Assembly: GCF_900090195.1 (NCBI RefSeq)
Contig: NZ_LT607803.1
Span: 4,986,229-5,050,228, forward strand
Origin: Variovorax sp. HW608
GTDB lineage: Bacteria; Pseudomonadota; Gammaproteobacteria; Burkholderiales; Burkholderiaceae_C
Reading direction: 5' to 3'
DNA length: 64,000 bases
In this document: in pieces, positions 30,151 to 64,000 of the stretch
Position numbering within the stretch: position 1 is the stretch's first letter
Layout: each line of letters starts with the position of its first letter
Program-made: the position numbers and the translations under genes
Notes under the pieces: model-generated
Told to the model about the DNA's origin: nothing
The model's database searches: none
The model's input: only the letters and a program-made list of their open reading frames with translations

Positions 30151-30553
30151 GGGTTGTCTCCTGTGCGCCGGTCAAAACCGGCAAAGTGTTGTGAATGAAA
30201 GTTTCATACGTTGAAGGCTTAGCCAGCTACGGCGGCCCCGAGTCATGCGTGCACATCCGCGAGGGTGTGGGCGAAGCGTTGATAGGGGGACGAGCGGGCC
30301 GGGTATCGAGCCGCGTAATACATGCCCCGTGGCGACAGCTGCGGGTGGTCCGGGGTGCCGAGGCAGTAGGAGAATGCCGAAGGTCACACCGTCGCTGCCG
30401 CATTGGCGAGGCAGAGGCGGACCCCGCGCGGTCAAAGACCCCGAGCACGCACGCAAGCACTTTGTTCGGGAACCGGGAGATCCCGCGTCCTTCTGCGCAG
30501 CGCTGGGAAGCGCTGGCTGCAGAGCGCATCGTGAAGCCCAAGGGCGTACGACG

Positions 30554-32062
30554 ATGAGCCACAGGCGCGGGAAGTCGGACTGCTGCGTAGTACCGAAGAA
30601 GCTGCCGAACAAGGCTGCGGGGGAAGCTCCTGCGGCGGCGGAGGTGGTGGAGGGAAGGCGGCAGGCCAAGGGAAATGCCATCGCGGCGCGCATGTCCCGC
30701 AGATCGGTGCGGGTCTATGACATGGGAACCGCGCTCGATGGCATACGACAGACGGCAAAGGGCCGTCGTGATGCGAGGTTCACGGGACTGCTGCATCACA
30801 TCTACGCGGTCGAACGCCTGCGGGCGGCTTACCTCGCGCTCAAGCGCGACGCGGCCGCCGGGGTGGACGGCCAGACCTGGCAGACGTACGGACAGGACCT
30901 GGAGGGCAATCTCCTGGAGTTGTCCGAGCGGCTGGCCCGAGGGGGCTACCGGCCCCAGCCTGTGAAGAGGGTGTACATCGACAAGGCCGACGGCAGCAAG
31001 CGCCCGCTGGGCGTGCCGGCGCTGGAGGACAAGCTCGTCCAGCGTGCCACGGTCGAAGTGTTGAACGCCATCTACGAGCAGGACTTCCTCGGGTTCAGCT
31101 ACGGCTTCAGGCCCGGGCGCAGCGCGCACAACGCGCTGGATGCCGTGGCGGTGGGTGTGGGCGCAAGGAAGGTGAACTGGATACTCGATGCGGACATCGC
31201 CAAGTTCTTCGACACGATCGAAAGGGACTGGCTGGTGAAGTTCATCGAACATCGCGTGGCTGACACGCGCGTGGTGCGGCTGATCAAGAAATGGCTGCAC
31301 GCGGGCGTGCTGGAGGACGGCAGGCTCACGCAAGGTGAGTTGGGGACGGTTCAGGGCGGGAGCATCAGTCCGCTGCTGGCCAACATCTACCTGCACTATG
31401 CGTTGGACCTGTGGGTGAAGCAGTGGAGGGGGCGCCATGCCCGGGGTGACGTGATCGTCGTGCGCTACGCCGACGATTGGGTTGCGGGGTTCCAGTTCCG
31501 TGATGACGCCGAGCGCTTCCAGCGCGCGGTGGCCGAGCGGCTGGGCCAGTTCGGGTTGAAGCTGCATCCCGAGAAGACGCGGCTGATCGAGTTCGGGCGC
31601 TTCGCCCACGAGAACCGACGCCGCAAGGGACAAGGCAAGCCGCAGACCTTCGACTTCCTGGGGTTCACGCATTGCTGCGGGACGACCCGAAAGGGCAAGT
31701 TCATGGTCCTGCGACTCACCAGTGCCAAACGCCTGCGAGCCAAGCTGCAGGTGATCAAGCTCGAACTCAGAAGGCGCATGCACCAACCCATCCCGGAGCA
31801 GGGCCAGTACCTGCGGGCGGTGGTGACTGGGCATGCGCGCTACTTCGGCGTGCCGTGCAACGGCGCGCGGCTGAGGACATTCCGCCATCAGGTCGTCGGG
31901 CTGTGGCATCGCACGCTGTGCCGCCGCAGCCAGAGCCACGACCTGCCTTGGCGACGCATGTATCGCTTGATGGCGCACTGGCTGCCTGTCCCGAACATCT
32001 GCCACCCCTACCCGCACCAGCGTCTGATCGTCATGACCCAAGGCAGGAGCCGTATGCGGTAG
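30554..32062 (+). CDS. ltrA: Group II intron reverse transcriptase/maturase
   Basis: A 502-residue LtrA-type protein. RT blocks are clear: ALKRDAAAGVDGQTW, SKRPLGVPALEDKLVQRA, YGFRPGRSAHNAL, DADIAKFFDTI, GTVQGGSISPLLANIYLHY and catalytic YADD (305-308). The maturase domain X follows. There is no HNH endonuclease domain at the C-terminus, so mobility would rely on pre-nicked or single-stranded targets. ATG 30554 starts the RT-0/N-terminal extension; an upstream start at 30245 lies in the domain I RNA. Its stop codon falls within domain V. Confidence 0.93.
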   Translation: MSHRRGKSDCCVVPKKLPNKAAGEAPAAAEVVEGRRQAKGNAIAARMSRRSVRVYDMGTALDGIRQTAKGRRDARFTGLLHHIYAVERLRAAYLALKRDAAAGVDGQTWQTYGQDLEGNLLELSERLARGGYRPQPVKRVYIDKADGSKRPLGVPALEDKLVQRATVEVLNAIYEQDFLGFSYGFRPGRSAHNALDAVAVGVGARKVNWILDADIAKFFDTIERDWLVKFIEHRVADTRVVRLIKKWLHAGVLEDGRLTQGELGTVQGGSISPLLANIYLHYALDLWVKQWRGRHARGDVIVVRYADDWVAGFQFRDDAERFQRAVAERLGQFGLKLHPEKTRLIEFGRFAHENRRRKGQGKPQTFDFLGFTHCCGTTRKGKFMVLRLTSAKRLRAKLQVIKLELRRRMHQPIPEQGQYLRAVVTGHARYFGVPCNGARLRTFRHQVVGLWHRTLCRRSQSHDLPWRRMYRLMAHWLPVPNICHPYPHQRLIVMTQGRSRMR

Positions 32063-45397: not shown

Positions 45398-46783
45398 ATG
45401 CCCCGCTTCATGCACCGGCTCAGCGCAGCCATGGTCGCCAAGCAGGTCACGCCCGGAATGTACGCCGACGGGGGCAACCTGTGGCTTCAGGTCACCAGCC
45501 CCACCGCCCGCTCATGGGTGTTTCGCTACACGCTCAACGGCCGCGCCCGCACGCTCGGCCTCGGCCCGCTGCACACCGTCAGCCTCGCGCAAGCACGCCA
45601 GAAAGCGCAGGACAAGCGGGCTGCGCTGCTGGTTGAGCGCAGCGCCGGTTCGCCGCTTGCTGCGGCCCCGGCGGTCGCGCACGCATCGGCTGCGCCATCC
45701 GCAGCCGCCCCGGCCTCCCTTGCGCCGCTGGCCTCTCGGCGCACGCGCCAGCAGGTCGAGCTGTCACACGCGCGTACCAGCGCCGCCAGTGCGGCCACAC
45801 TCGCCGAGGCTTATGACATGTACCTCGCGGCGAAGGGCAGCGAGTGGAAGGCGAACCGCGCCACGCTCGTGAAGCGCCGCTTCGAGCTGCACGCCAAGAA
45901 ACGCATCGGCCACATGCAGCCGGACCAGATCACGCACCTCGACGTCCTGGCCGTGATCGAGCCGATCTGGAAGACCAAGCATCCGACTGCGAACGACCTG
46001 CGCGGTGAGCTGGAGGACGTACTGGCCTTCGCCACGATCCGCGGCATGCGCGCGGACACGCCGAACCCCGCTTCGTGGAAGGGCAAGCTCGAGCACGCGC
46101 TGGCCGCGCCCGACAAGGTGCACAAGACCAAGGGGCACGCCGCGCTCGAATGGAAGGACATGCCCGCGTTCATGGCGCAGTTGGCCGAGGCGGCACCCGA
46201 CGCGGGCGACCGCGCCCGCGCGCTGCTGGTGGCTATCTACTGCCAGTCGCGCAGCAATGAGATTCGCGGCATGCGCTGGGCGGATCTCGTGGATATCGAC
46301 GGCAAGCGCCCGCTGTGGGCGCTCGATGCCGAGGACATGAAGGGCGAGCGCAAGCACTTGGTGCCCATGCCGGCCGAGGCCGTGAAGATCATCCGTGCGC
46401 AAAAGCGCGGCAAGCCCTCGGATCTCGTCTTCATGGAGAACGGGGTCGAGTTGCACAAGGACGCAATGGGCAAGCTCGTGGCCAAGCTCGGCCATGCGGC
46501 CACGCCGCATGGGCTGGCGCGCGCGACGTTCAAGACGTGGTCGCTGGAGGCCACCGAGTTCGACCAGAAGATCGTCGAGATCGCGCTGGCACACAAGGTC
46601 GGGGACTCGACCGAGGGGGCCTATGTGCGCGGCGGCGCGGTCGATCGCCGCGCGGAGATCCTCAATGCATGGGCGGGCTTTCTGAACGGCCGGCAGTCCA
46701 AGGATGCGCGCGTGCGCACCTACAAGACGGCCGCGAGCGAGAAGGTCGTCAGCATCATTGAGGCACGTCGCAAGGCAGCCTGA
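45398..46783 (+). CDS. int: Prophage tyrosine integrase (DUF4102/P4-type)
   Basis: A 461-residue integrase. The N-terminal arm-binding domain reads DGGNLWLQVTSPTARSWVFR and RTLGLGPLHTVSLAQARQKA, typical of P4-type enzymes. An Ala-rich linker (about 84-125) is unusually long. The catalytic set is Arg285 (QSRSNEIRG), His371/Arg375 (HGLAR), His399 (ALAHKVG) and Tyr409 (GAYVRG). No tRNA gene borders it, so the target may be the slyD 5' region. It sits next to the tail-fibre end of the phage genome. Confidence 0.93.
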   Translation: MPRFMHRLSAAMVAKQVTPGMYADGGNLWLQVTSPTARSWVFRYTLNGRARTLGLGPLHTVSLAQARQKAQDKRAALLVERSAGSPLAAAPAVAHASAAPSAAAPASLAPLASRRTRQQVELSHARTSAASAATLAEAYDMYLAAKGSEWKANRATLVKRRFELHAKKRIGHMQPDQITHLDVLAVIEPIWKTKHPTANDLRGELEDVLAFATIRGMRADTPNPASWKGKLEHALAAPDKVHKTKGHAALEWKDMPAFMAQLAEAAPDAGDRARALLVAIYCQSRSNEIRGMRWADLVDIDGKRPLWALDAEDMKGERKHLVPMPAEAVKIIRAQKRGKPSDLVFMENGVELHKDAMGKLVAKLGHAATPHGLARATFKTWSLEATEFDQKIVEIALAHKVGDSTEGAYVRGGAVDRRAEILNAWAGFLNGRQSKDARVRTYKTAASEKVVSIIEARRKAA

Positions 46784-46788
46784 TCCTC

Positions 46789-46962
46789 TCAGGCCTCGGG
46801 CACAGCGCGCAGTGCGGGCGGCTGGCCCGCCTGTTGCGCCTGCTGCTGCTTTTCTATCTGCTGCAGGATCGGCCCGAGGATCGGCTGCACTTCGCGCCAC
46901 GGGTGCGACGCCAGGTAGTTCAGCAGGTTCTGCAGCTGTTCGTTCGTGAATTCGAGCGTCAT
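46789..46962 (-). CDS. Small phage protein downstream of tail fibre
   Basis: A 57-residue protein starting MTLEFTNEQLQNLLNYLASH and ending Gln/Ala-rich (EKQQQAQQAGQPPALRAVPE). Its ATG overlaps the fibre stop (ATGA at 46959-46962), and it is the last gene of the minus-strand module, 5 nt from the convergent integrase end. It has no membrane segment, so it is not a holin. Its position suits a fibre-associated accessory protein. Confidence 0.65.
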   Translation of the reverse strand: MTLEFTNEQLQNLLNYLASHPWREVQPILGPILQQIEKQQQAQQAGQPPALRAVPEA

Positions 46963-48296
46963 GCTTTGGCCTCCAAGGTTTCGACGCGCGCGATCAGTTC
47001 GGCGACGCCGGCATAGGTGAGCGCAATCATCGGCATGACGTCGAGCGTTCGCATCGCTTCGGGCGCGGCCACGGTGGCGACCTCGCCGCCACTCTCGGCA
47101 GCTTCGGCCAGTGCGGCGGCGAGCGCCGTCGAATCGAGAGCCGCCGAATAGCCGACTGCTACCGGGAAGACCGTCTCGACCTCCTGCGCAACGAAGCCCG
47201 CCGAGTGCGCGATCGAGCCGTCCAGCGGCTTCACGTCGTTGCGGTCGTAGGTGACGGCGCGCAGCTGCTTGATCTTTGCGCATGCGTCCGTGAGCGTGGC
47301 GACGTTGTCCTTCAGGCGCGCATCCGAAGCCTGCCGCCACCCGGCCGGCGCTTCGCCCCAACCATCGGTGCGAAAGGTGTAGCTGCCCGAGTTGTCGAAT
47401 TGCATTTGCCAGCCGGCGACGTTGCCGGGCGTGTGGATCGACGACAGCCGCATGTAGCCGTAGCTACTCGCTGAATTGATCGTGTTGCAAAAATCGGTGC
47501 CCGCGTTGTTCGTGTAGCCGCTGGCCCAGAAGGGCGACGTCCCGGCACAAACGAACTGCTGCGCCGTCGTCGTCACGCCCGCATAACTGATGGTGAACGG
47601 GATGCCGGCCTGGGTGATCCAGTCAAGCCGGCCGTCCTGATCGTTCCAGCGCCAATAGTAGTTACCGGCGAATTGAAGGATGTAATACGGGGCGGAGCGA
47701 TAGGTTGAGAAACCCGGCATGAACTGCACGCCGCTTTGAAAGCTCCCCCCCGCTCCCGTAATGTTCCCCGGTGTCGCGATGTTGCAGGAGACATCGATGG
47801 TCACGCTGCGCCCGCCTGCGGTGTTCCACACAAGGCTCCCGGTCGTGCCGTCGAACGCAAGGTAATAGTTCGTCCACATATTGAGCGTGGGCGTATTGGC
47901 GTTCAGCCAGGACGCATAAAAGCTCGTGCCCTGCGACGTCCCGAGAGTCAACGACCCCGGCACCGATGTATTGCCCGCCGAATTAACCACGATCTTGTCG
48001 TGATTCGGTATGCCAAGCGCGGCGAGTGTGGTCGCGGGATCGCCTGCGCTCGAGATCGCAGGCAACATCGATACCCACGAGCCGTTGGCCGCGTCGCGCA
48101 AGCGAAGGACGCCATTGGGCTGGTCCGCGACCGAGGTATCGAGCCAGATCTGCCCGGGGAACGTGCGAGGCGGCGAGGTCGGTCCTGCGTTCGAGGTGTT
48201 GATCGCCGAGTTTTGCCGGTTGAGGATATCGGCCAGGGCATCGCCCGAGGTCGTTGTCGGGTCTATCGGAAAGTCGGCGGCTAGGCTTTGAGACAT
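46959..48296 (-). CDS. Phage tail fibre with S74 self-processing chaperone domain
   Basis: A 445-residue fibre. The N-terminal part (PGQIWLDTSVADQPNGVLRL) is a short baseplate-attachment/fibre head module, and the middle is beta-rich. From about residue 323, SDARLKDNVATLTDACAKIK, RAVTYDRND and AGFVAQEVETVFP form a Peptidase_S74 intramolecular chaperone; the Ser of SDARLK is the expected self-cleavage site. The C-terminal helix (LIARVETLEAKA) fits the trimer tentacle. It probably recognises the host surface after releasing the chaperone. Confidence 0.88.
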   Translation of the reverse strand: MSQSLAADFPIDPTTTSGDALADILNRQNSAINTSNAGPTSPPRTFPGQIWLDTSVADQPNGVLRLRDAANGSWVSMLPAISSAGDPATTLAALGIPNHDKIVVNSAGNTSVPGSLTLGTSQGTSFYASWLNANTPTLNMWTNYYLAFDGTTGSLVWNTAGGRSVTIDVSCNIATPGNITGAGGSFQSGVQFMPGFSTYRSAPYYILQFAGNYYWRWNDQDGRLDWITQAGIPFTISYAGVTTTAQQFVCAGTSPFWASGYTNNAGTDFCNTINSASSYGYMRLSSIHTPGNVAGWQMQFDNSGSYTFRTDGWGEAPAGWRQASDARLKDNVATLTDACAKIKQLRAVTYDRNDVKPLDGSIAHSAGFVAQEVETVFPVAVGYSAALDSTALAAALAEAAESGGEVATVAAPEAMRTLDVMPMIALTYAGVAELIARVETLEAKA

Positions 48297-54069: not shown

Positions 54070-56373
54070 TCACCCCGCGATCGGTTGGCGCGTGAGGCCG
54101 TAGCCCTGGCGCATGGTGCGATCCATCGAGCCGTTGGCGAACATCGTCTTGACCTTCTGCTCAACGTAGACCTCAATCTGGCGCGAGCCGTCCGCGTTGT
54201 CCTTGTTCTGTGTCGACACATCCACGGCTGCGTTGTTGTGGATGTTCACCGTCACGGGCGAGGCAGCGACACCGAGGTCGCCGCTCGTGCCTCGACGTAG
54301 GGGCACCACGGCCTCGGCCCCGGCCTCGCCCGCGACAGCGAGCCCGCCGCCGGTTGCGAAGAAGGTCGGCCGCGAGAGGATGCCACCGCGTGCCATGAAC
54401 TCGACGCCGCTCGCGTCCCAGGCGCCTCCCTGTGCCGTGCCCGAGACGCTGCCCCAGCCCATCGTCCTGAAGAGGTTCGCGATCTGCTGATTCACGAGCA
54501 GCTTGGCGAGGTTCTTGAGCATGCTCTCGATCATGTCGCTGAACGCCTGATCGGTTTTTCCGAACCCGTCGATGAGCGTGCCGACGAAGTCCGTCACGAA
54601 GCGCGCCCCGGCCTCCTCGATCGCGTCGGCCAGGTCCTTCGTTTGTTTGACGCTCTTTTCCATCCCGTCCTGATAGGTCTGCATGTGCTTGCTCGCGCCC
54701 TCGGCGAACTCTTGCGTCGTGACGGCGCCATCGGCGAGGAGCCGAAACCACTCGGCCTCCATCTCGGCGTTGCGGCGCGTCTCGGCGCGCATCTTTTCGA
54801 GCTCGAGCGTGACAGCCGCGATCGGGTCCTTGGCCGCTTCGAGCTTGAGGATCTCTTCGCGCAGGAGCCTGAACTCCTCGGTGCCTCCCTTGCCGGCGGC
54901 CATGAGCTCGGTCATGCGCTCGGACAGGCCCGCGATGATCGCCGGCTGATCATCGAGCGCCTTCGCTGCCCTGGCGATCCGTTCGAGCGCATCGGCAACC
55001 GGGTCGGGCTGGAGCCTTCGAAGCTCGGCGGTCCATCGCTTGAAGGCCTCGCTTATCGTGTCGCCGTTGGCCGCGAGGACCGCGAGATGGCTCGTGAGCC
55101 ATTCGATCTTTGCGCCCGCGTCGTCGCTCGCCGTGGCGAACTTGAGCATCGAGTCCATCCACTTCTCGAAGTCGCTCGTCTGGATCGCGGTGGGCGTCCT
55201 TCTGGACGTGCCGGCCTTCTTGGTGGTGCCATCGAGTTGCTTTTCGAGGCTTTCGAGCTGCTTGGTGTAGGACTTGAGCAGCAGCGCGTCCTTTTCGACC
55301 GCGGGGTCGAGGAACGAGATCGCCTCGCGCAGCGCCTTGACCTTCTGCGGTACCTGCGCGAACCCCTCGGCAGTGTCGCGGGCCTGCTCCTCGAACTTTT
55401 TGAGCCACCTCGGACCGGCCTCCTGCTCGGCCGCTTTCTGCAACGAGTCGGCGAAGGTGCCGACCGAATCGGCCATGGACTTCAGGCCCGGTGGCGGCCC
55501 CAACTGCGCGGAGGCGACCGAGAAGGCTTTCGCGGCGATGGCTCCGGCGCTGAAACTGGCGTTGAGCTCGTTGAGCCAGCTGATGGCCCGGGACACCGGA
55601 CTGACCATCGACAGGCACCAGTCGAGGAACTTGTTCAGTCCCGGCAGCAGCTCGGCGACGATCGCCTTGCCGACGCTGATGCCGACCTCCTCGAGCCGGG
55701 TGAGCTTGTCGTTGAACTCCGAGGCCTGGCGGGCCGTCTCCTCGCTCACCTGACCATACTGGCTCTGCTCGGCGATCAGCTGCTCGACGGCGGCCGAGCC
55801 ATCGTTGAGCGCGGGAATCATCTTCATGCCGAGGGTGCGGCCGAAGGTGTCCACCGCAATCGAGGTCTTCTCGGTGCCGTCGCTCATGCCCTGGAATGCG
55901 TCGGCCATCTTCAGGATTGCAGTGGACGCGTCGTCGCCGGCCGCAATCCCCATCGAACGGAGGCCGCGTGACGACTTGTTGGTCATGTCGTCGATGTCGG
56001 CGAGCTTGTCCGTGAGGCGCCCCAGCACCGTGACGGTCTCACTTCCCTTGAGGCCCGCGAAGCCGAATGCGTACTGCAGCTCCTGCACCTGCTCGACCGT
56101 GAGGCCCACCTGCTGGGCGCTTTTGCCCAGCTGGTCCATCTGGTCGATCATGCCCTTGACGGCGTCGGTGACCTGGCCGATCACCTCCTTGGCGATGTAG
56201 AACCCGGCGGCGATATCGAGCTTGGTGCCGATGGAGGCGAGCTGGCCGCCCACGTTGTCCATCTGCTCGGCGTTGCGCTGCGTGGCAGCGGTGAGCTTGT
56301 CCAGCTGCGCGATCGCCTGCGAGGTGTCCGCCTCGTATCGGACGATGCGCTCGATATTGTCAGTGGTGGCCAT
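54070..56373 (-). CDS. Phage tape measure protein
   Basis: A 767-residue protein that sets tail length and is ejected with DNA. It has a coiled-coil N-terminus (IAQLDKLTAATQRNAEQMDN), a TMP core (AFGFAGLKGSETVTVLGRLT, TFGRTLGMKMIPALND), a hydrophobic patch (IAAKAFSVASAQLGPP region), long helices and a C-terminal GGILSRPTFFATGGGLAVAG segment common in tape measures. Length predicts a tail of roughly 110-120 nm by the usual scaling, which is an inference. It follows the small basic protein gene. Confidence 0.92.
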   Translation of the reverse strand: MATTDNIERIVRYEADTSQAIAQLDKLTAATQRNAEQMDNVGGQLASIGTKLDIAAGFYIAKEVIGQVTDAVKGMIDQMDQLGKSAQQVGLTVEQVQELQYAFGFAGLKGSETVTVLGRLTDKLADIDDMTNKSSRGLRSMGIAAGDDASTAILKMADAFQGMSDGTEKTSIAVDTFGRTLGMKMIPALNDGSAAVEQLIAEQSQYGQVSEETARQASEFNDKLTRLEEVGISVGKAIVAELLPGLNKFLDWCLSMVSPVSRAISWLNELNASFSAGAIAAKAFSVASAQLGPPPGLKSMADSVGTFADSLQKAAEQEAGPRWLKKFEEQARDTAEGFAQVPQKVKALREAISFLDPAVEKDALLLKSYTKQLESLEKQLDGTTKKAGTSRRTPTAIQTSDFEKWMDSMLKFATASDDAGAKIEWLTSHLAVLAANGDTISEAFKRWTAELRRLQPDPVADALERIARAAKALDDQPAIIAGLSERMTELMAAGKGGTEEFRLLREEILKLEAAKDPIAAVTLELEKMRAETRRNAEMEAEWFRLLADGAVTTQEFAEGASKHMQTYQDGMEKSVKQTKDLADAIEEAGARFVTDFVGTLIDGFGKTDQAFSDMIESMLKNLAKLLVNQQIANLFRTMGWGSVSGTAQGGAWDASGVEFMARGGILSRPTFFATGGGLAVAGEAGAEAVVPLRRGTSGDLGVAASPVTVNIHNNAAVDVSTQNKDNADGSRQIEVYVEQKVKTMFANGSMDRTMRQGYGLTRQPIAG

Positions 56374-57152: not shown

Positions 57153-57758
57153 GGGACGGCGCTCCGGTGGACGGTGCTGCAGGCGCTGCTGTCTCCTTGG
57201 CCCTCGCCCGCGGCTTGCGCGCCGCTGCGCCGCTCGCCTTGAGCAGCGCCTGCACGGCGTTCGGGTCGTCGGTGCGGATCTCGCCCTTGGCGCGCGCCGC
57301 TGCCCGCGACCGGTCCTGCTCGCGATCATTGAAGTACTGGACCCAGTCCAAGAATTCAGCCCAGGACAACATGGCGGTGAGTTCTCCTACGGTCTTGCCC
57401 AGCTCCAGCGCGAGGTCATGCAGTTGCCTGCGAACCGGGCTCAGGCGTTTCCCTCGGCGCTGCCTTCCGGTTGCTTGCCTTCCGGCTGCGTCTCGTACCG
57501 CTTGCTCACTTCGGTATAGGCTTCCATCAGCTCGTTGAACAAGGCGGGCGGCAAATCCAGCACGGCATCGCGACCGATGGGCTCCCCGGTGCCGTTGCTC
57601 ACCGCATGGCCGAGGTACCCCGCCGCGCGCTCGATGCCAGGCTCCGGGTAGTCCTTCATCACCTGCAGGTGCAGTCGCATCGACAGCTCGTGCACGACAA
57701 AGTCGCCCACGCGCTGGCTGCGAAAGACGACGCCCCCTTTGTCGCGCTCGGTCGTCAT
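57145..57758 (-). CDS. Tail assembly chaperone fusion G-T (via -1 frameshift)
   Basis: Reading through the slippery site joins the 105-residue G protein to a second frame that begins RLSPVRRQLHDLALELGKTV and runs through WAEFLDWVQYFNDREQDRSR to an Ala/Lys/Arg-rich end, 204 residues in all. The second frame has no ATG or GTG of its own after the G stop, so it is reached by frameshifting, as in lambda G-GT. The fusion is expected to wrap the tape measure and recruit tail-tube protein. Confidence 0.82.
57441..57758 (-). CDS. Tail assembly chaperone G (unshifted product)
   Basis: A 105-residue acidic protein (MTTERDKGGVVFRSQRVGDF, VLDLPPALFNELMEAYTEVS) ending in EGSAEGNA. The ATG overlaps the major tail protein stop (ATGA at 57755-57758). 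The stop is 3 nt past the slippery heptamer. Length and place match lambda G. Confidence 0.85.
   Translation of the reverse strand: MTTERDKGGVVFRSQRVGDFVVHELSMRLHLQVMKDYPEPGIERAAGYLGHAVSNGTGEPIGRDAVLDLPPALFNELMEAYTEVSKRYETQPEGKQPEGSAEGNA
57447..57453 (-). other. Programmed -1 frameshift slippery site GGGAAAC
   Basis: On the coding strand the heptamer reads G GGA AAC in the G frame, the X XXY YYZ form (lambda uses GGGAAAG). Slipping back one base leads into the open G-T frame. The G stop TGA (57441-57443) follows one sense codon later. This is seen directly; the efficiency is unknown. Confidence 0.85.
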
Positions 57759-58474
57759 GCCGCGACCCCTTCGGTGAGCGGAATGAGCTCGCCCGTGCTT
57801 TCGGTGTCGTCCCACACGTGCTCGGGCCGCGACTTGAGGTTGGCGGTCGCGGTCCATGCCATGCCGCCATCTCCCATCGGGATGTCCCAAGTCATGCTCA
57901 CGAAGTTGACGGCCTGGATGAGCTCGCCCTGACCCTGTCCGAGCAGGATCGAGAGCACCCGTGTCTTGCCGTCCTTGACGGCCCGGTAGACCGCCGGATA
58001 GGCCGAGTCCTGCACGTCGATGTAGCCGCCGAGGGTCATGGTTCCGGGCGCCCCGGCGGTGGCCGGGAGCGTCGCGCTCGGGTTGCAGTACGTGCCGACG
58101 TCCACCGTTCCCGGAGTCTCCAGTGCATAGGCGAACGATGACAGGCACAGCGGCGTGAGGTCCGTGTTGTCGTACACGAGAACCTCCGCACCTGCGCTCG
58201 ACAGCGATCCGGTGCTGTCGGTGGTGTCGCTGCCGGTGGCTGTGAAAGAGTCCCCGGTTGAGCTTCCGATCGTGAAGAAGTGGTTGTCCAGCTCGGGGAA
58301 CCCGGTGCCCTGGAACATCACCGGTGCGCCGAGCTGCCAGCCTCCGGCGGGCGAGGCGGCCGTGATGACCGCGGGCCTGGATTTCGAGACGCCCGTGACC
58401 TCGACCGAGATCGGGGCCGATCCGTCGCTCAGGTAGATGCGAACGTCTTTGCTGCTCTTGGCTTCTGCGACCAT
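57755..58474 (-). CDS. Phage major tail tube protein
   Basis: A 239-residue protein. VRIYLSDGSAPISVEVTGVS, AVITAASPAGGWQLGAPVMF and VNFVSMTWDIPMGDGGMAWT are typical of long-tailed phage tube proteins. It includes a PGTMTLGGYIDVQDSAYPAV stretch. A weak Ig-like/insert loop with Ser/Thr-rich SFTATGSDTTDSTGSLSS may be surface-exposed. It precedes G. Confidence 0.85.
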   Translation of the reverse strand: MVAEAKSSKDVRIYLSDGSAPISVEVTGVSKSRPAVITAASPAGGWQLGAPVMFQGTGFPELDNHFFTIGSSTGDSFTATGSDTTDSTGSLSSAGAEVLVYDNTDLTPLCLSSFAYALETPGTVDVGTYCNPSATLPATAGAPGTMTLGGYIDVQDSAYPAVYRAVKDGKTRVLSILLGQGQGELIQAVNFVSMTWDIPMGDGGMAWTATANLKSRPEHVWDDTESTGELIPLTEGVAA

Positions 58475-58874: not shown

Positions 58875-59233
58875 ACCGTGCGCCCTCGCACATAGGCCGT
58901 GAATGCGATGACGGTGTCGTCGAGCATGCGCGCGAGCACGGTGTCCAGCGCATAGGTGGGCTGCTCGGGCGTGCCCACGAGCACCAGGTCGTACTTGGCG
59001 GGCGGCTTGGCCAGGAGCTCCGCGATCGGCGGCAGGGTCAGGATCAGCGCGTTGATGCCGAAGGCGTTGACGATCTGCTCGTCGCGTCGTTGCGGGTGCG
59101 TGCGGAGGAACCGCAGCGGCAGCGGCGACGCGTCGGGATCGGAAGCGCGCACGAGCTGGCCGCTCACCCCCAGCATGCGAATGGACACATGCAGCGACTG
59201 GATCGCGGCGGTGGCGGCGCGGCTTGTCATCAT
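58871..59233 (-). CDS. Head-tail joining protein (neck)
   Basis: A 120-residue protein with a basic start (MMTSRAATAAIQSLHVSIRM) and VTALVR-like IRMLGVSGQLVRASDPDASP, the usual opening of HK97-type head closure/stopper proteins. Overlaps both neighbours by 4 nt. Function inferred from place between adaptor and tail terminator. Confidence 0.68.
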   Translation of the reverse strand: MMTSRAATAAIQSLHVSIRMLGVSGQLVRASDPDASPLPLRFLRTHPQRRDEQIVNAFGINALILTLPPIAELLAKPPAKYDLVLVGTPEQPTYALDTVLARMLDDTVIAFTAYVRGRTV

Positions 59234-59934
59234 CCGATCCCGATGACCGTCTCTGCCCGGTAGGGGTGCAGCAGCGACGTGGCCGACAGCGGCAGGAACG
59301 GCCCGAAGGAGCCCACATCGCCGCCGGCCTGGCTCGCGGCCTTGTCGCCGCTACCCGTGTCGAAGGCCAGCGCCATGCCGTCGATGTTGAAGGACTTGAC
59401 GGCACCGCCTGCGCCCGCGCCGGCTTGCGACCCGGCGTCCGCTCCCCATCCGGGCGTCGCGAACCAGACGGCGTCGAAGACCAGCCACAGCGCCTGTTCG
59501 AGATCTGCGGGCAACGGGTCATAGCCGCCGGTGTAGTTCAGCACGAAGCCGGCGCTCTCGCGGCCGTAGAACGGGCTCGGCGCCGCGGCGTCCACCCCTC
59601 CTGCAACCCATGGCGGCGCTCCGACGACGAAGACGATGCCGCGCTTCTTGTCCATGCGCCAGGCCGCCGAAACGTCATAGGGCTCGGGCGGCGGGTCGGG
59701 CTGCGGATCGATCGGCTCGATGGTTTCGAGCGAGACGAGGGGATAGCGACGCACGAGCAGGTTCGGCCCGCACGGCAGCGTGAACTCCTGCCTGTCTTCC
59801 TGCTTGAGAAAGCGACGGTCGCAGTAGCTTTCGGCCACGGCGAGCGCGAAGTTCATCGCGGACTCGATGACCTCGTCCTGTTCGCCGCCCTCGATGCCCA
59901 GGCGCTTCCTGGCGGTGTCGAGATCCCAGCTCAT
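59230..59934 (-). CDS. Head-tail adaptor (gp6-like) protein
   Basis: A 234-residue protein. DTARKRLGIEGGEQDEVIES, AMNFALAVAESYCDRRFL and LVRRYPLVSLETIEPID are typical of HK97 gp6-type connector proteins that dock on the portal. A Gly/Ala-rich insert (about 170-215) is unusual. It follows the small membrane peptide (overlap 4 nt). Confidence 0.78.
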   Translation of the reverse strand: MSWDLDTARKRLGIEGGEQDEVIESAMNFALAVAESYCDRRFLKQEDRQEFTLPCGPNLLVRRYPLVSLETIEPIDPQPDPPPEPYDVSAAWRMDKKRGIVFVVGAPPWVAGGVDAAAPSPFYGRESAGFVLNYTGGYDPLPADLEQALWLVFDAVWFATPGWGADAGSQAGAGAGGAVKSFNIDGMALAFDTGSGDKAASQAGGDVGSFGPFLPLSATSLLHPYRAETVIGIG

Positions 59935-60083
59935 TTGAAGACCGCTCCCCAGTTGGCGATGACGAGGGAAAGATCCGCGAGCGCGAGACCGACAGCCATG
60001 AAGTTGAACGGCTGCTTAACCGCGGGAATGCAGGCCAGCACGAAGAACACTTCGGCCAGCACGAGAATCGCGTCAGAGAGCAT
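59931..60083 (-). CDS. 50-residue membrane peptide in the head module
   Basis: A short gene found by direct reading: MLSDAILVLAEVFFVLACIP, then AVKQPFNFMAVGLALADLSL, ending VIANWGAVFK. It has two hydrophobic helices joined by a short basic turn. The ATG at 60083 overlaps the repeat-protein stop by 11 nt and its TGA overlaps the adaptor ATG (ATGA). Tight packing supports coding. It could be a small holin-like or membrane-attached factor; unknown. Confidence 0.72.
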   Translation of the reverse strand: MLSDAILVLAEVFFVLACIPAVKQPFNFMAVGLALADLSLVIANWGAVFK

Positions 60084-62007
60084 GACCGTCTCCTTGCGGT
60101 GGGGTGGTAGGGGCGCGCGTGAAGCGCGCGATCAGGCGCTGTTCGATGGCCTCGCCCAGCGTTTCGAGCATCGGAACCAGATCGACGGCGAAGTCCTGTA
60201 GCTGGCCCGAGGCGTTGCGCGCTAGCACCGCGAGCATGCCGCCCTTGAGCTGCATGTCCTCGATACCGTAGCCGTCGCGACCGTTGTTGCCGTCCTTGCC
60301 GTTGGTGCCGTCGCGGCCCTTGCCGTCGCGCCCCTTCTCGCCGGCGGGTCCGCGCGCAGCGAACAGGTGCAGCTCGCCGCTCGCATCGATCACGAAGGTG
60401 CTGAAGTCGTGCATGACGAGATCGCCCAGCGCGTACTGGGCGCCCTCGGCGTAGGGCTTGGCCAGGTGCAGGCCCAGGGTGCCCACGCGCTGCCAGTCGC
60501 GGCTGCCGTAGGGCTCGTCAGTTGTGTCGCGCAGCGCCCGATAGAACTGGCCCATGTAGGCCTGCACCAGCGCGCCTTCGCGGTGGATGCCCGGCGCCCA
60601 TGCCGGGGTGTCGATGCCGGCGCCGTCCTGGCCATCCTTGCCGTTTGTGCCGTCCTTGCCCTCGGTACCGGGCCGCCCTTCGAGCGCGCCCGCGTGCGTG
60701 AGCATCAGCGCCTCGGCCACCTCGTGCGCTGCAGGCGCCTCGGCCTTCAGGCTCGCAAGCCACTCGGCCTGGCTGCCGTCAAAGCCTTCGGCCCGCGCGA
60801 TGTCGTAGGCCGAGCGCGGCTTCGCGTCCAGCAACTGCGCGTGCAGCGCGCGCACCTCGGCTGCCAGGTCGTCCGCCGCCTGCAGGCGGCGCAAGAGAAG
60901 ATCCTGGCTGCCGGCGAGCTCGCGGGCGGCCGCCTCCTTCACCAGCTGGCACAGCCGGTCCTCGGCCGCCGACACTTGCTCGCGGATCTCGGCCGCATCT
61001 GCCTTGGGGCTCGCCTGCTGCAATTGCACGTGCAGCGCGCGCACCTCGGCTGCCAGGTCGTCCACCATCTGCAGACGGCGCAACAGAAGATCCTGGCTGC
61101 GCGCCACCTCGGCGGCGGCCGCCTGCCGCATCGTGCTCACCGCGTCCCCCGTACGGTCCTTGACCAGTTCGCGCAACCGGTCCTCGGCCGCCGTCACTTG
61201 CTCGCGGATCTCGGCGGCATCCGACTTGGAGCTCGCTTGCTGCAACTGCGCGTGCAGCCCTCGCACCTCGCTAGCCAGGTCGTCCACCATCTGCAGGCGA
61301 CGCAAGAGAAGGTCATGGCTTCGCGCGACCTCGGCGGCGGCGGCCTGCCGCATCGTGCTCACCGCGTCCACCGTGCGGTGCTCGACCAGCTCGCGCAACC
61401 GGTCCTCGGCGGCCGTCACCTGCTCGTGGATCTCGGTGGCATCCGACTTCGGGCTCGCCTGCTGGAGTTGCACGTGCAGCGCGCGCACCTCGGCTGCCAG
61501 GTCGTCCACCATCTGCAGGCGGCGCAACAGGAGATCCTGGCTGCGCGCGACCTCGGCGGCGGCCGCCTGCCGCATCGTGCTCACCGCGTCCACCGTGCGG
61601 TCCTCGACCAGGTCGCGCAGCCGGTCCTCGGCCGCGGTCACTTGCTCGTGGATCTCGACCGCATCCGACTTCGGGCTCGCCTGCTGCAACTGCGCGCACA
61701 GATTGCGCACCTCGGCATCCAAGGCCTCGGCCGTCTGCATACGGCGCATCAGCAGGTCCTGGCTGCGCGCGAGCTCGGCGGCCGCGGCCTGTTGCATGGC
61801 GAGCGCGGCATCGGTGGTGCTGCGCTGGAGAAACTCGCGCAGCCGATCCTCGGCGGCGCTCACCTGCTCGCGCGCGACCTCGCTGGCCTGTGCGGCGTCC
61901 ATGCATTCAGCCCGTCGCAGCTCGATGAGCGCCTCCAGCGTCTGGCGCTGGTCGGCCAGCGCGAGCTCGATCACCTGCGCGATGCGGTCCACGTCCTGCG
62001 CATTCAT
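60073..62007 (-). CDS. Tandem coiled-coil repeat and collagen-like phage protein
   Basis: A 644-residue protein with no named family recognised as a whole. Five 74-residue coiled-coil units start at residues 47, 121, 195, 269 and 343 (each opening EQVTAAEDRL or EQVSAAEDRL; the last is 11 residues shorter). Next come SAYDIARAEGFDGSQAEWLASL (phage collagen-like leader), a Gly-X-Y stretch (443-464), a module like CBM5/12 (GALVQAYMGQFYRALRDTTD to DWQRVG, about 478-508) and a second Gly-X-Y stretch (552-582). It is probably a trimeric fibre or head appendage. Overlaps the portal by 4 nt. Confidence 0.85.
   Translation of the reverse strand: MNAQDVDRIAQVIELALADQRQTLEALIELRRAECMDAAQASEVAREQVSAAEDRLREFLQRSTTDAALAMQQAAAAELARSQDLLMRRMQTAEALDAEVRNLCAQLQQASPKSDAVEIHEQVTAAEDRLRDLVEDRTVDAVSTMRQAAAAEVARSQDLLLRRLQMVDDLAAEVRALHVQLQQASPKSDATEIHEQVTAAEDRLRELVEHRTVDAVSTMRQAAAAEVARSHDLLLRRLQMVDDLASEVRGLHAQLQQASSKSDAAEIREQVTAAEDRLRELVKDRTGDAVSTMRQAAAAEVARSQDLLLRRLQMVDDLAAEVRALHVQLQQASPKADAAEIREQVSAAEDRLCQLVKEAAARELAGSQDLLLRRLQAADDLAAEVRALHAQLLDAKPRSAYDIARAEGFDGSQAEWLASLKAEAPAAHEVAEALMLTHAGALEGRPGTEGKDGTNGKDGQDGAGIDTPAWAPGIHREGALVQAYMGQFYRALRDTTDEPYGSRDWQRVGTLGLHLAKPYAEGAQYALGDLVMHDFSTFVIDASGELHLFAARGPAGEKGRDGKGRDGTNGKDGNNGRDGYGIEDMQLKGGMLAVLARNASGQLQDFAVDLVPMLETLGEAIEQRLIARFTRAPTTPPQGDGHAL
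60834..61869 (-). repeat. Tandem 222-bp coding repeats (74-residue units)
   Basis: DNA-level repeats inside the fibre-like gene with a strict 222-bp period; the inner copies are very similar (DAVSTMRQAAAAEVARSQDL is near-identical in three). The last unit lacks 33 bp. Such repeats can recombine and change copy number. Confidence 0.85.
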
Positions 62008-63464
62008 GACTGCGGCTCCCGCACGCCCAAGCGCTTCATCAAGGCGCGTGCAACCTGCTCTGAACTCATGGTCTCGCCGACGGCCAGCGAGAGCTCCACG
62101 GGCCCGCCCTGGCCGTCCCCGGGGCCGTCATTGGCGGCCGGCTCGGCGGGGGAGGGCGGGGCGGCGATGGGGGTCGTGGACTGGCCCGTCGTGCCCAGTG
62201 GCACCATCTGCTGCTGCACGTAGACCGTGTCGCCACCGGGCACGCGTCCGAGCCCTTCGCGCGCACGCGCCTCGTCGGGCTTGTACAGGCCGCCCTGAAT
62301 GCCCTTGCACAGCGCCTCGATGCGCCCTGCGAAGTCCGTGCGCAGCAGCGCCGTGGTGTCGAAGTCGCAGTACTCCGTCACGTTGTCGAAACCGAACATC
62401 TCGTCGAAGGCGCGCTCCACCAGTTCGAGGAGCGACCCCAGGCCCGTCGAGAGCCAGAAGCTGATCAGCGATTCGACGTTAGTGAGGGTGGCGTGCGTGA
62501 GGTCGCCGATGACCGGCAGCGGCACGCGGTAGACCCGCGCGATGTCCTCGATGCTCAAGCGCTGTGCCTCGATGAGCTGTGAGTCCTCGCTGGTGATGGT
62601 CATGGGGATCCACTTCATGCCGTTGCCCAGCACCGGAACGCCCCCCTGTGCGAGGAGCGTGGCCTGGCTTTCCCAGTTCTCCCGCGCGCGCGTGATCTGT
62701 ACCGCAGTGAGCTGCTGATCGGACACCAGCACGCCCGAAGGGCGAGACATGCGCGAGAAGAACACGGCCTGCGAGCGCGACAGCGCCACGTTGATGCCCA
62801 TGGCCAGCGCCGCCGCGGTGGCCGGCGACTCGCCCCGCAGCGGATGGCGCGGGCAGTACTGGCGCAGCGCCATGACATCGCGCGCTGCCACCACGTAAGC
62901 CAGGCCCTCGATGCTGCCCGTGAAGTCCGGAGTCAGCTCGTTGTGCCCGATGCTGTAGTAGACCGAGCCGTCGACGGGGCTGATGAAAGGCGCGGCGCCT
63001 CCGGTTGGCACGCGGTGCAGCGATGTGATCGCGCCCTTGTCATCGCGCAGTGCAATCGCATAGCCGGTGCCGTCGAACTGCATGGCCGCCACCAGGTTGA
63101 GCATGAAGACGGGCCATGTCTCGTAGGCGTTGGGCTTGCGGAAGATGCGAAAGGCCGGGCTCGTGGTCACGCGCGCGAACTCGGCCGCGGCTCCGGTCTC
63201 GCGCAGGTGCCGCGGCCAGCACTGCGCAACGGCGGCGGCGTTCGCCATCACGGCCGCATAGGCGGCCGGGATGCGCCGCACGCCGAAGGTGGGCACTTCG
63301 AGGTTTCGCTGCCAGCCGTCGCCGGTGGGCTCGACCCGGAAGCTGCCGCCGAGTTCCCCGATGGCCATGAACGGTCCGCGCCACGACCCTTCGGTCGAAA
63401 AGAACCCCTTGACGGCATGGGCCAGGCGCGGCATCAGGCTCGGCACCAGCTCGCGCAGCTTCAT
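62004..63464 (-). CDS. Phage portal protein, HK97 family
   Basis: A 486-residue portal that forms the DNA gate at a capsid vertex. VPTFGVRRIPAAYAAVMANA-type start, ALRDDKGAITSLHRVP, SPVDGSVYYSIG, VFFSRMSRPSGVLVSDQQLT, IARVYRVPLPVIGDLTHATL, and NVESLISFWLSTGLGSLLEL are diagnostic. ATG 63464 lies 4 nt after the small protein's stop; an upstream start is in that gene's antiparallel frame. Its 3' end is Pro/Ala-rich. The usual prohead protease and capsid genes do not follow it. Confidence 0.92.
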   Translation of the reverse strand: MKLRELVPSLMPRLAHAVKGFFSTEGSWRGPFMAIGELGGSFRVEPTGDGWQRNLEVPTFGVRRIPAAYAAVMANAAAVAQCWPRHLRETGAAAEFARVTTSPAFRIFRKPNAYETWPVFMLNLVAAMQFDGTGYAIALRDDKGAITSLHRVPTGGAAPFISPVDGSVYYSIGHNELTPDFTGSIEGLAYVVAARDVMALRQYCPRHPLRGESPATAAALAMGINVALSRSQAVFFSRMSRPSGVLVSDQQLTAVQITRARENWESQATLLAQGGVPVLGNGMKWIPMTITSEDSQLIEAQRLSIEDIARVYRVPLPVIGDLTHATLTNVESLISFWLSTGLGSLLELVERAFDEMFGFDNVTEYCDFDTTALLRTDFAGRIEALCKGIQGGLYKPDEARAREGLGRVPGGDTVYVQQQMVPLGTTGQSTTPIAAPPSPAEPAANDGPGDGQGGPVELSLAVGETMSSEQVARALMKRLGVREPQS

Positions 63465-63468
63465 GGCT

Positions 63469-63807
63469 TCAGCCCTCGAACGGCGCCGGCGCAGGCGCGG
63501 CGTCCGTTTCCTCGACTGGTGGTGCGGCCGGTGCCGCAGGCGCAGGCGGCGGTGCTGGTGGCCTGGGGAACCCGGTTGGCTCGGTACCGGCTCGGAACGG
63601 GTACTTCGTGCGCCCATCGGCCTTGACCGCCACGCCCTCTGCGATGAGTGCTTCGCCTTCCTCCTTCGTCACCATGCGCAGGCCCAGCTTCGGCAGCGGC
63701 AGTCCATCGAACTGCCAGATGGCGAAGTTCCTGCGCACCGGGGCGGCGGCTGCCGCAGCCGCGCCTGCCGCTTGGGTCTTCGCTGCAGTTTTCGTTCTCG
63801 TGGCCAT
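63469..63807 (-). CDS. Small Ala/Pro-rich phage protein
   Basis: A 112-residue protein: basic, Ala-rich start (MATRTKTAAKTQAAGAAAAA), a central folded-looking part (RNFAIWQFDGLPLPKLGLRM, TKEEGEALIAEGVAVK) and a Pro/Ala tail (PPAPPPAPAAPAAPPVEETD). It lies between the capsid end and the portal gene. Unknown; a capsid decoration or portal-associated role is suggested only by position. Confidence 0.7.
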   Translation of the reverse strand: MATRTKTAAKTQAAGAAAAAAAPVRRNFAIWQFDGLPLPKLGLRMVTKEEGEALIAEGVAVKADGRTKYPFRAGTEPTGFPRPPAPPPAPAAPAAPPVEETDAAPAPAPFEG

Positions 63808-63890
63808 GTCCTGTACTCCTTCAATCAAAGAGGGGCCGGCCCCCCGAGACGGGATGCCGGCCCCCCTGTGCTTCGCGTCGAGGCGGAGAC

Positions 63891-63998
63891 TTACCAGGCT
63901 GCCCCGGTGATCACTTGCACCGAGTGGTCGCGCATGCGCGCCCAGCTCACGTTCCACAGGGCACGGATGCCGCCGCTATTGGTCTGCCAGAGGCTTCG
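63891..63998 (-). CDS. Major capsid protein, C-terminal end (5' part outside window)
   Basis: The last 35 residues read RSLWQTNSGGIRALWNVSWA and end RDHSVQVITGAAW. The pattern Q-T/N-x-x-x-I/V-R-A-x-x-x-V-x-W followed by V-x-T/L-I-T-G is the usual end of HK97-like capsid proteins, placed on the outer E/P-loop face. Only the end is visible. It lies upstream of the portal in transcription, which is not the usual order. Confidence 0.7.
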   Translation of the reverse strand, partial: RSLWQTNSGGIRALWNVSWARMRDHSVQVITGAAW

Positions 63999-64000
63999 AG

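Follow-up and report, generated by a model that had tools for sequence, protein, structure and literature searches.

A repeat-built fibre gene behind the portal of a Variovorax prophage: a candidate neck fibre of HK97-type siphophages

The DNA analysed here (the window) is a stretch of 64,000 nucleotides from Variovorax sp. HW608 (contig NZ_LT607803.1, positions 4,986,229 to 5,050,228), and it carries a prophage in which an intact open reading frame (ORF) for 644 residues (60073..62007, minus strand) was recognised as a fibre gene by its family membership and conserved slot. The order of the genes on the minus strand is protease-like ORF, capsid, small gene, portal, fibre, connector, major tail protein, tape measure, tip genes and S74-ended fibre, and the end of the portal gene overlaps the start of the fibre gene by 4 bp. 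The fibre gene is a real, conserved and little-recognised structural gene, and the evidence below suggests a fibre at the head-tail junction that is partly mislabelled as portal in databases.

The protein, whose parts are all encoded on the minus strand, begins with an amphipathic helix (residues 1-35, 61903..62007; helix 3-35 in the structure model), which is the proposed virion anchor. In 70 family members, the mean maximal hydrophobic moment of N-terminal residues 4-33 was 0.381, compared to 0.327 (standard deviation 0.008) for shuffled sequences. The helix is followed by the repeats, which were placed by matches to the unit profile and by register: unit 1 (residues 49-122, 61642..61863), unit 2 (123-196, 61420..61641), unit 3 (197-270, 61198..61419) and unit 4 (271-344, 60976..61197). 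The earlier note on this DNA had described five exact 74-residue units; four of them are exact, but the fifth (345-399, 60811..60975) is shortened to 55 residues, with a profile match at E 2.7e-17. In the DNA, the array has a period of 222 bp and a score of 1238, and this score together with the exact 74-residue register rules out that the repeats arose by chance. Units 2, 3 and 4 are 88-92% identical among themselves at the DNA level, and unit 1 is 75-76% identical to them. The third codon position accounts for 17/27, 11/18 and 17/26 of the pairwise differences between units 2-4.

Behind the repeats lies a SAYDIARAEGFDGSQAEWLASL motif (residues 399-420, 60748..60813), noticed in the sequences of the database matches, where motifs of this type recur as a repeat in several collagen-like proteins. 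The two collagen-like parts around a CBM5/12-like module that had been described earlier were found as a run of seven triplets at residues 444-464 (60616..60678) and a second run, with one interruption, at residues 553-581 (60265..60351). The module between them consists of a first half with a predicted fold (461-512, 60472..60627) and a second half (513-552, 60352..60471) that is CBM-like by sequence pattern only, with strands in the model, and lies outside the region covered by the structural matches. The protein ends in strands and a helix in the structure models (581-630, 60118..60267).

By structure comparison, residues 461-512 are predicted to adopt a fold of the CBM5/12 type, with matches to chitinase B, chitinase C and copies in phage tail fibres (Pa193 and cyanophage A-1(L)). 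The fold is common to CBM5/12 domains, but sequence identity to them is low (14-30% in the named comparisons), and the fibre protein had no match to Pfam CBM_5_12 (PF02839) at E<=0.1. Among its relatives, L020 has a CBM_5_12 match above the cut-off, through a further module, and L101 has a weak one, below the cut-off, at the place that corresponds to the second half of the module. The module of the fibre bears the conserved family pattern W-GI/VYREG-V-GQ-A-DT-EP-W-R-G and is 31-59% identical to the 44 others in the module alignment. The module profile, built from 18 sequences with the fibre's own module among them, matched the fibre protein with 197 bits over residues 447-620.

The position of the gene was examined in uncultured siphophages by using two sets of viral contigs, with some contigs in both. 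One set comprises the 80 best of 111 contigs found with a portal bait, whose alignment was drawn from the source genome and seven contigs in which the module had been recognised before; the other comprises 25 contigs obtained with a module bait. The portal-bait set represents 72 distinct portal C-terminal ends. A module ORF lay behind the portal in 67 of the 80 portal-bait loci, within 100 bp in 66 of them and at 431 bp, after another ORF, in L028, and portal and module were fused in two more (L052 and L053). A fibre that is made of repeats, bears a module of sugar-binding-like type and keeps a constant position after the portal is supported. Ten of the 80 loci end within 600 bp of the portal, with L019 among these still showing the module, and only L091, with 632 bp left, was without it. 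In 74 of the 86 loci scored from both sets, the fibre start overlaps the portal stop by 1-11 bp (by 4 bp in 43), while the remaining loci have a gap of 4-12 bp (6 loci), are separated (3) or are fused (3). The connector could be identified after the fibre gene in 31 of the portal-bait loci, at most 300 bp away in 25 of these; 10 further loci of this set had 800 bp or more remaining and no connector match.

Members of the family range from 136 residues (L101, a helix and a module) to 2,196 residues (L033). Among nine members scanned, a Collar domain was found in L025 (1,733 residues), a Peptidase_S74 end in P0118, which is known without its gene neighbours, and Phage_tail_C in L028. As far as seen, the constant core of the family is the N-terminal helix and the module, with the coiled coil, collagen and adhesin parts being optional. 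By eye, one relative has two tandem modules (L080:3568-4536), which is a further sign of valency change. Searches of genomes gave little: the C-terminal piece was matched in two of 61 kin genomes (the source genome itself and one weak match with internal stops), a related portal was found at E<=1e-30 in two of 300 genomes of the order, one being the source genome, and scans of genome contigs with the module and portal alignments yielded no confirmed case.

The number of repeat units differs within this family. A profile of the 74-residue unit, built from units 1-4, had five matches in this fibre and one in each of 11 relatives, which were chosen for similar N-termini; the closest of these, P0114 (297 residues), is 70% identical to the fibre protein in the alignment. 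Judging from these sequences, the simplest account would be that a single unit has expanded to five on this branch. A further diverged segment was seen by eye in P0109, and another relative has collagen-type internal repeats of its own (L083:1700-2854, by eye), a further sign of length change. The coliphage proteins in the equivalent slot have another unit, of 54 residues, which was counted in five otherwise similar genes and is present in three copies (L126, L127 and L128), four copies (L123) or five copies (L125). Because the number of 54-residue units differs among these similar coliphage genes, change of copy number by whole units can be seen to occur in such portal-adjacent proteins. Both comparisons agree with the proposal in the earlier note that the length changes with repeat copy number.

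Four tblastn queries from the family found no match among 50,697 phage records (limits E 1e-5, 1e-3, 1e-3 and 0.1) and two further queries gave weak matches only, at E 0.06 or worse. The slot-equivalents in cultured phages were reached via the portal instead of via the fibre family. Proteins in the portal-adaptor slot were found in FSL SP-016 (SP016_00155, Salmonella), RHph_X2_26 (QWY83564, Rhizobium), JLK-2012 (gp62, Escherichia) and PAJU2 (ORF007), with the same gene order as in this prophage, and the start of the slot protein overlaps the portal stop in three of the four, with a 4-bp gap in RHph_X2_26. By eye, these proteins are like this fibre in having a helix-like start, repeats or a helical shaft, and CBM5/12-like patterns near the C-terminus; the coliphage ones, unlike it, have the 54-residue unit and little collagen. 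The C-terminal modules of the fibre family and the slot proteins were aligned by hhalign with a probability of 73 (E 3e-5), and the module profile matched, weakly, one of five unfused slot proteins (P0313). This is only suggestive of homology between the two kinds of module.

The slot protein is annotated as portal protein in RHph_X2_26 and JLK-2012 and as hypothetical in FSL SP-016 and PAJU2. All four, and gp5 of EBPR siphovirus 3, match phrog_1289, which is named 'portal protein'; P0312-P0315, P0317 and P0321 match it strongly. This fibre protein had no match to phrog_1289 at E<=0.1, and its relative L028 had a weak one (E 5.4e-4). Another group, phrog_2271 (859 positions), is a joined model of portal and slot protein. 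The slot protein, and not a portal, is what phrog_1289 represents, and its name was probably carried over from fused forms. Among 5,426 complete E. coli genomes, 1,237 had a match to the slot-equivalent. The coliphage slot protein had a single match in the PDB by sequence, at E 0.48, and searches of the open-licence PMC literature on fibres of the head, neck or portal, on PAJU2 and on ECs1975 listed no study of this protein.

Natural fusions tie the fibre physically to the portal. A search with a fused protein gave 270 matches, and the best 120 of these included 116 new proteins (P0196-P0311), of which seven were longer than 560 residues and had a portal match. Six of the seven, P0196, P0197, P0198, P0199, P0215 and P0216 (metagenome), carry a clear module (E 2e-55 to 8e-8), and the module is weak in the seventh, P0307. 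In P0222 (505 residues, incomplete at the portal side), portal and module are both weakly placed. By protein length and contig, P0196 and P0198 can be equated with the products of L052 and L053. The module-bait set supplied one more fused contig, L023. Reading the sequences, L053 lacks the N-terminal helix, and others retain a helical stretch.

Fusion was also found in coliphage 705R7 and E. coli AVS0343, where portal and slot protein are in one ORF. Apart from substitutions, the fused and split coliphage alleles are distinguished by a short homopolymer run of differing length immediately ahead of the slot-protein start. RefSeq flags one split E. coli copy as frameshifted (region L123, L125-L128). 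In the 5,426 E. coli genomes, a 56-base query of the fused junction matched 824 records (742 at >=99%) and a 55-base query of one split junction matched 375 (341 at >=99%), with at least two genomes (E2863 and E2855) in both lists; the integrity of the ORFs at these junctions was checked in the named records alone.

The unfused portal of this prophage is of the HK97 type (486 residues, 62004..63464, minus strand; PF04860 at E 2e-62, phrog_12). Past the end of the HK97 portal match, it has a C-terminal tail made of a Pro/Gly-rich linker and a terminal helix-like peptide (62007..62192, minus strand). In relatives, too, the part of the portal beyond this match consists of a linker rich in Pro and Asp and, at the end, a short peptide of helix-like character. 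In 76 portals, the hydrophobic moment of the C-terminal 20 residues was 0.329, compared to 0.312 (standard deviation 0.009), and because this excess is only slight, a docking helix on the portal is offered as a suggestion.

Of the remaining genes, also on the minus strand, the major capsid gene has its 3' end at 63891..64000 and continues past the window (497-residue ORF; PF05065 and phrog_617). The ORF listed between capsid and portal (63469..63957) probably encodes a protein of 112 residues and has a very weak match to phrog_4366, 'head fiber protein' (E 0.074). Upstream of the capsid, the protease-like ORF matches the N-terminal part of phrog_617 and had no Pfam match at E<=0.001, so that the label of protease rests on a weaker PHROG match than that of capsid. 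As capsid and protease-like ORF both lie upstream of the portal, the slot of the fibre is not unusual, and the earlier note was mistaken in expecting a protease and capsid there. Downstream of the fibre follow the head-tail connector or adaptor (59230..59934; phrog_442 at E 6.7e-19, with Phage_connect_1 below the cut-off), the major tail protein (57755..58474; phrog_584 at E 8.1e-17), the tape measure protein (54070..56373; Tape_meas_lam_C and PHROGs tape-measure matches) and a separate tail-tip fibre with an S74 chaperone end (46959..48296; Peptidase_S74 at E 2.2e-14). The N-terminus of the tail-tip fibre was also found behind the tip gene in five of six relatives (weakly in L134, not in L135). 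The presence of this separate fibre, here and in these relatives, makes the portal-adjacent fibre a second appendage, and the tail tip is rejected as the main reading of its own place, with its gene in the head module and another fibre in the tip slot.

The prophage integrase is on the plus strand (45398..46783; Phage_integrase and Phage_int_M). The large terminase gene lies in the same genome beyond the window (G000:C1:5069574-5071202, with TerL domains), about 17 kb past the protease-like ORF. This insert contains a complete-looking type I restriction-modification set (hsdM, hsdS and hsdR-like genes, L004:10597-17029) and a UvrD-like helicase gene beside a small gene (L004:3940-6156), and because these split the terminase from the protease-like ORF, the prophage may be disrupted. 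By eye, a resolvase-like ORF adjoins the restriction-modification genes. No tRNA genes were found at the prophage edges, either in 43000-64000 of the window or in L004. A reverse transcriptase gene (RVT_1) at 30245-32062 resembles, by eye, a group II intron protein.

We infer that the protein is a portal-adjacent neck fibre of an HK97-type siphophage lineage, a trimer anchored by its N-terminal helix and directed outward with a CBM5/12-like tip that binds sugars, and put the probability of this at about 55%. The N-terminal helix would hold the trimeric rod at the portal vertex, that is, at the neck, with the rod pointing away from the particle, and the fibre would probably be made in step with the portal, given the 4-bp overlap of stop and start. 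The tip would have a role in adsorption, probably by weak, multivalent binding of surface sugars before the tail tip engages. Since each 74-residue unit is predicted as a single long helix, in-frame gain or loss of a 222-bp unit would change the reach by about 11 nm, and the five units would form a helix of about 53 nm, compared to about 10.5 nm in the one-unit relatives. Three features make the outward neck fibre the most likely reading: the adhesin parts, the large sizes reached and the separate tail-tip fibre. The neck location put forward in the earlier note is retained as the best single inference, and no homologues known as ordinary tail fibres with a fixed repeat number came up; overall, what it had observed is partly confirmed and what it made of this is partly supported.

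Several results weigh against the neck fibre. The linkage of module to portal holds for this portal lineage and not for portals at large, because the bait alignment was drawn from contigs that carry the module; in Agrobacterium phage Rivra, which has the classic portal-protease-capsid order, no such gene adjoins the portal. The full-length model of the fibre is poor (pLDDT 66). The best PDB matches of the module by Foldseek E-value are phage tail fibres (9rkv), two more tail fibres (9b45 and 8kec) are among its VIA structural matches, and most partial matches of the family in PHROGs carry the name 'tail fiber'. Moreover, the portal crown, which in R4C is built from the C-terminus, is on the inner side of the capsid (HK97, PMC10359639; R4C, PMC10276861), so that the fusions, read literally, place the fibre inside. 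There are three ways out of this: the Pro-rich tail may allow the fibre to reach outside, the fused form may undergo cleavage, or the protein may be an internal one.

A further reading is offered as a tentative possibility. The fibre could be a detachable C-terminal arm of the portal ring, in most phages a separate protein held by the portal C-terminal helix and in others covalently joined. Fused and split forms would exist side by side in E. coli prophages, at a homopolymer prone to slippage. It needs the portal C-terminus to be outside the head, contrary to the accepted topology. If true, the portal through which DNA enters would carry host-binding fibres.

Alternatively, the protein could be a head fibre seated at the vertices of the capsid, or a fibre at the side of the tail, with a gene that merely happens to sit in the head module. 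Phage tail-fibre structures share the CBM5/12-like fold, PHROGs calls the partial matches tail fibre, and capsule-sugar binding is known from head fibres, for example RcGTA Rcc01080. However, adjacency to the portal is conserved, fusions to the portal exist (the search covered fusions to the portal and not to capsid or tail genes) and a separate tail-tip fibre is present, and we regard this as rather unlikely.

If the topology of the fusions is taken at face value, the protein could extend the portal crown within the capsid, where the module would influence DNA organisation or ejection, as the fusions follow a portal C-terminus that faces the interior by known portal topology. A rod of about 53 nm, the 1,733-residue L025 with its Collar domain and other members of more than 1,500 residues would fit poorly in a head, and the CBM5/12-like fold, with the S74 end in one member, suits an external trimeric fibre, making an internal location improbable. 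The translational overlap with the portal, and minimal members consisting of a helix and one module (L101), could instead point to a factor that assists assembly of the portal ring without being retained in the virion; adhesin modules, collagen and length variation would have no obvious use there, and we consider this very improbable. We least expect that the gene is decaying within a prophage that has become defective and that its repeats expanded by drift; the restriction-modification set between terminase and protease-like gene could indicate this, but the ORF is intact and the differences between units 2-4 are mostly at third codon positions.

The gene has a near-invariant place in a siphophage lineage. 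Our literature searches showed no described function for it, and both PHROGs and several public records give it the name 'portal protein'. Should it encode a neck fibre, these phages carry a second adhesin of tunable length. The fusions make the role of the C-terminal tail of HK97-type portals, and the side of the shell on which it lies, directly testable by imaging.

Second appendages directed at receptors or sugars have been described at the neck or head of other phages: the collar spikes of XM1 (PMC10457771), the lactococcal neck passage structure (NPS) with CBMs (PMC6669499) and the head fibres of RcGTA (PMC7296036). The lactococcal NPS of 936 and TP901-1 phages is a neck fibre of about 500 to 900 residues, in which a coiled-coil rod carries a tip that binds sugars (PMC6669499); it begins with a BppU-like beta-sandwich ring domain, whereas the N-terminus of this fibre is a predicted helix, and the tip of this fibre resembles CBM5/12 and not the BppA of the NPS. 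In Vibrio phage XM1, a myophage, gp40 is described as a neck-attached trimer with a coiled coil leading to a receptor-binding end (PMC10457771), and differs in having an Ig-like neck-binding domain, where this fibre has a predicted helix, and a tailspike end. Rcc01080 of RcGTA is likewise a second appendage besides the tail fibres, for capsule polysaccharide (PMC7296036), which sits on capsid pentamers via a base protein and an Ile/Leu-Gly peptide, unlike what is proposed for this fibre. If our inference holds, this fibre would work like the known neck fibres, but without their N-terminal domains.

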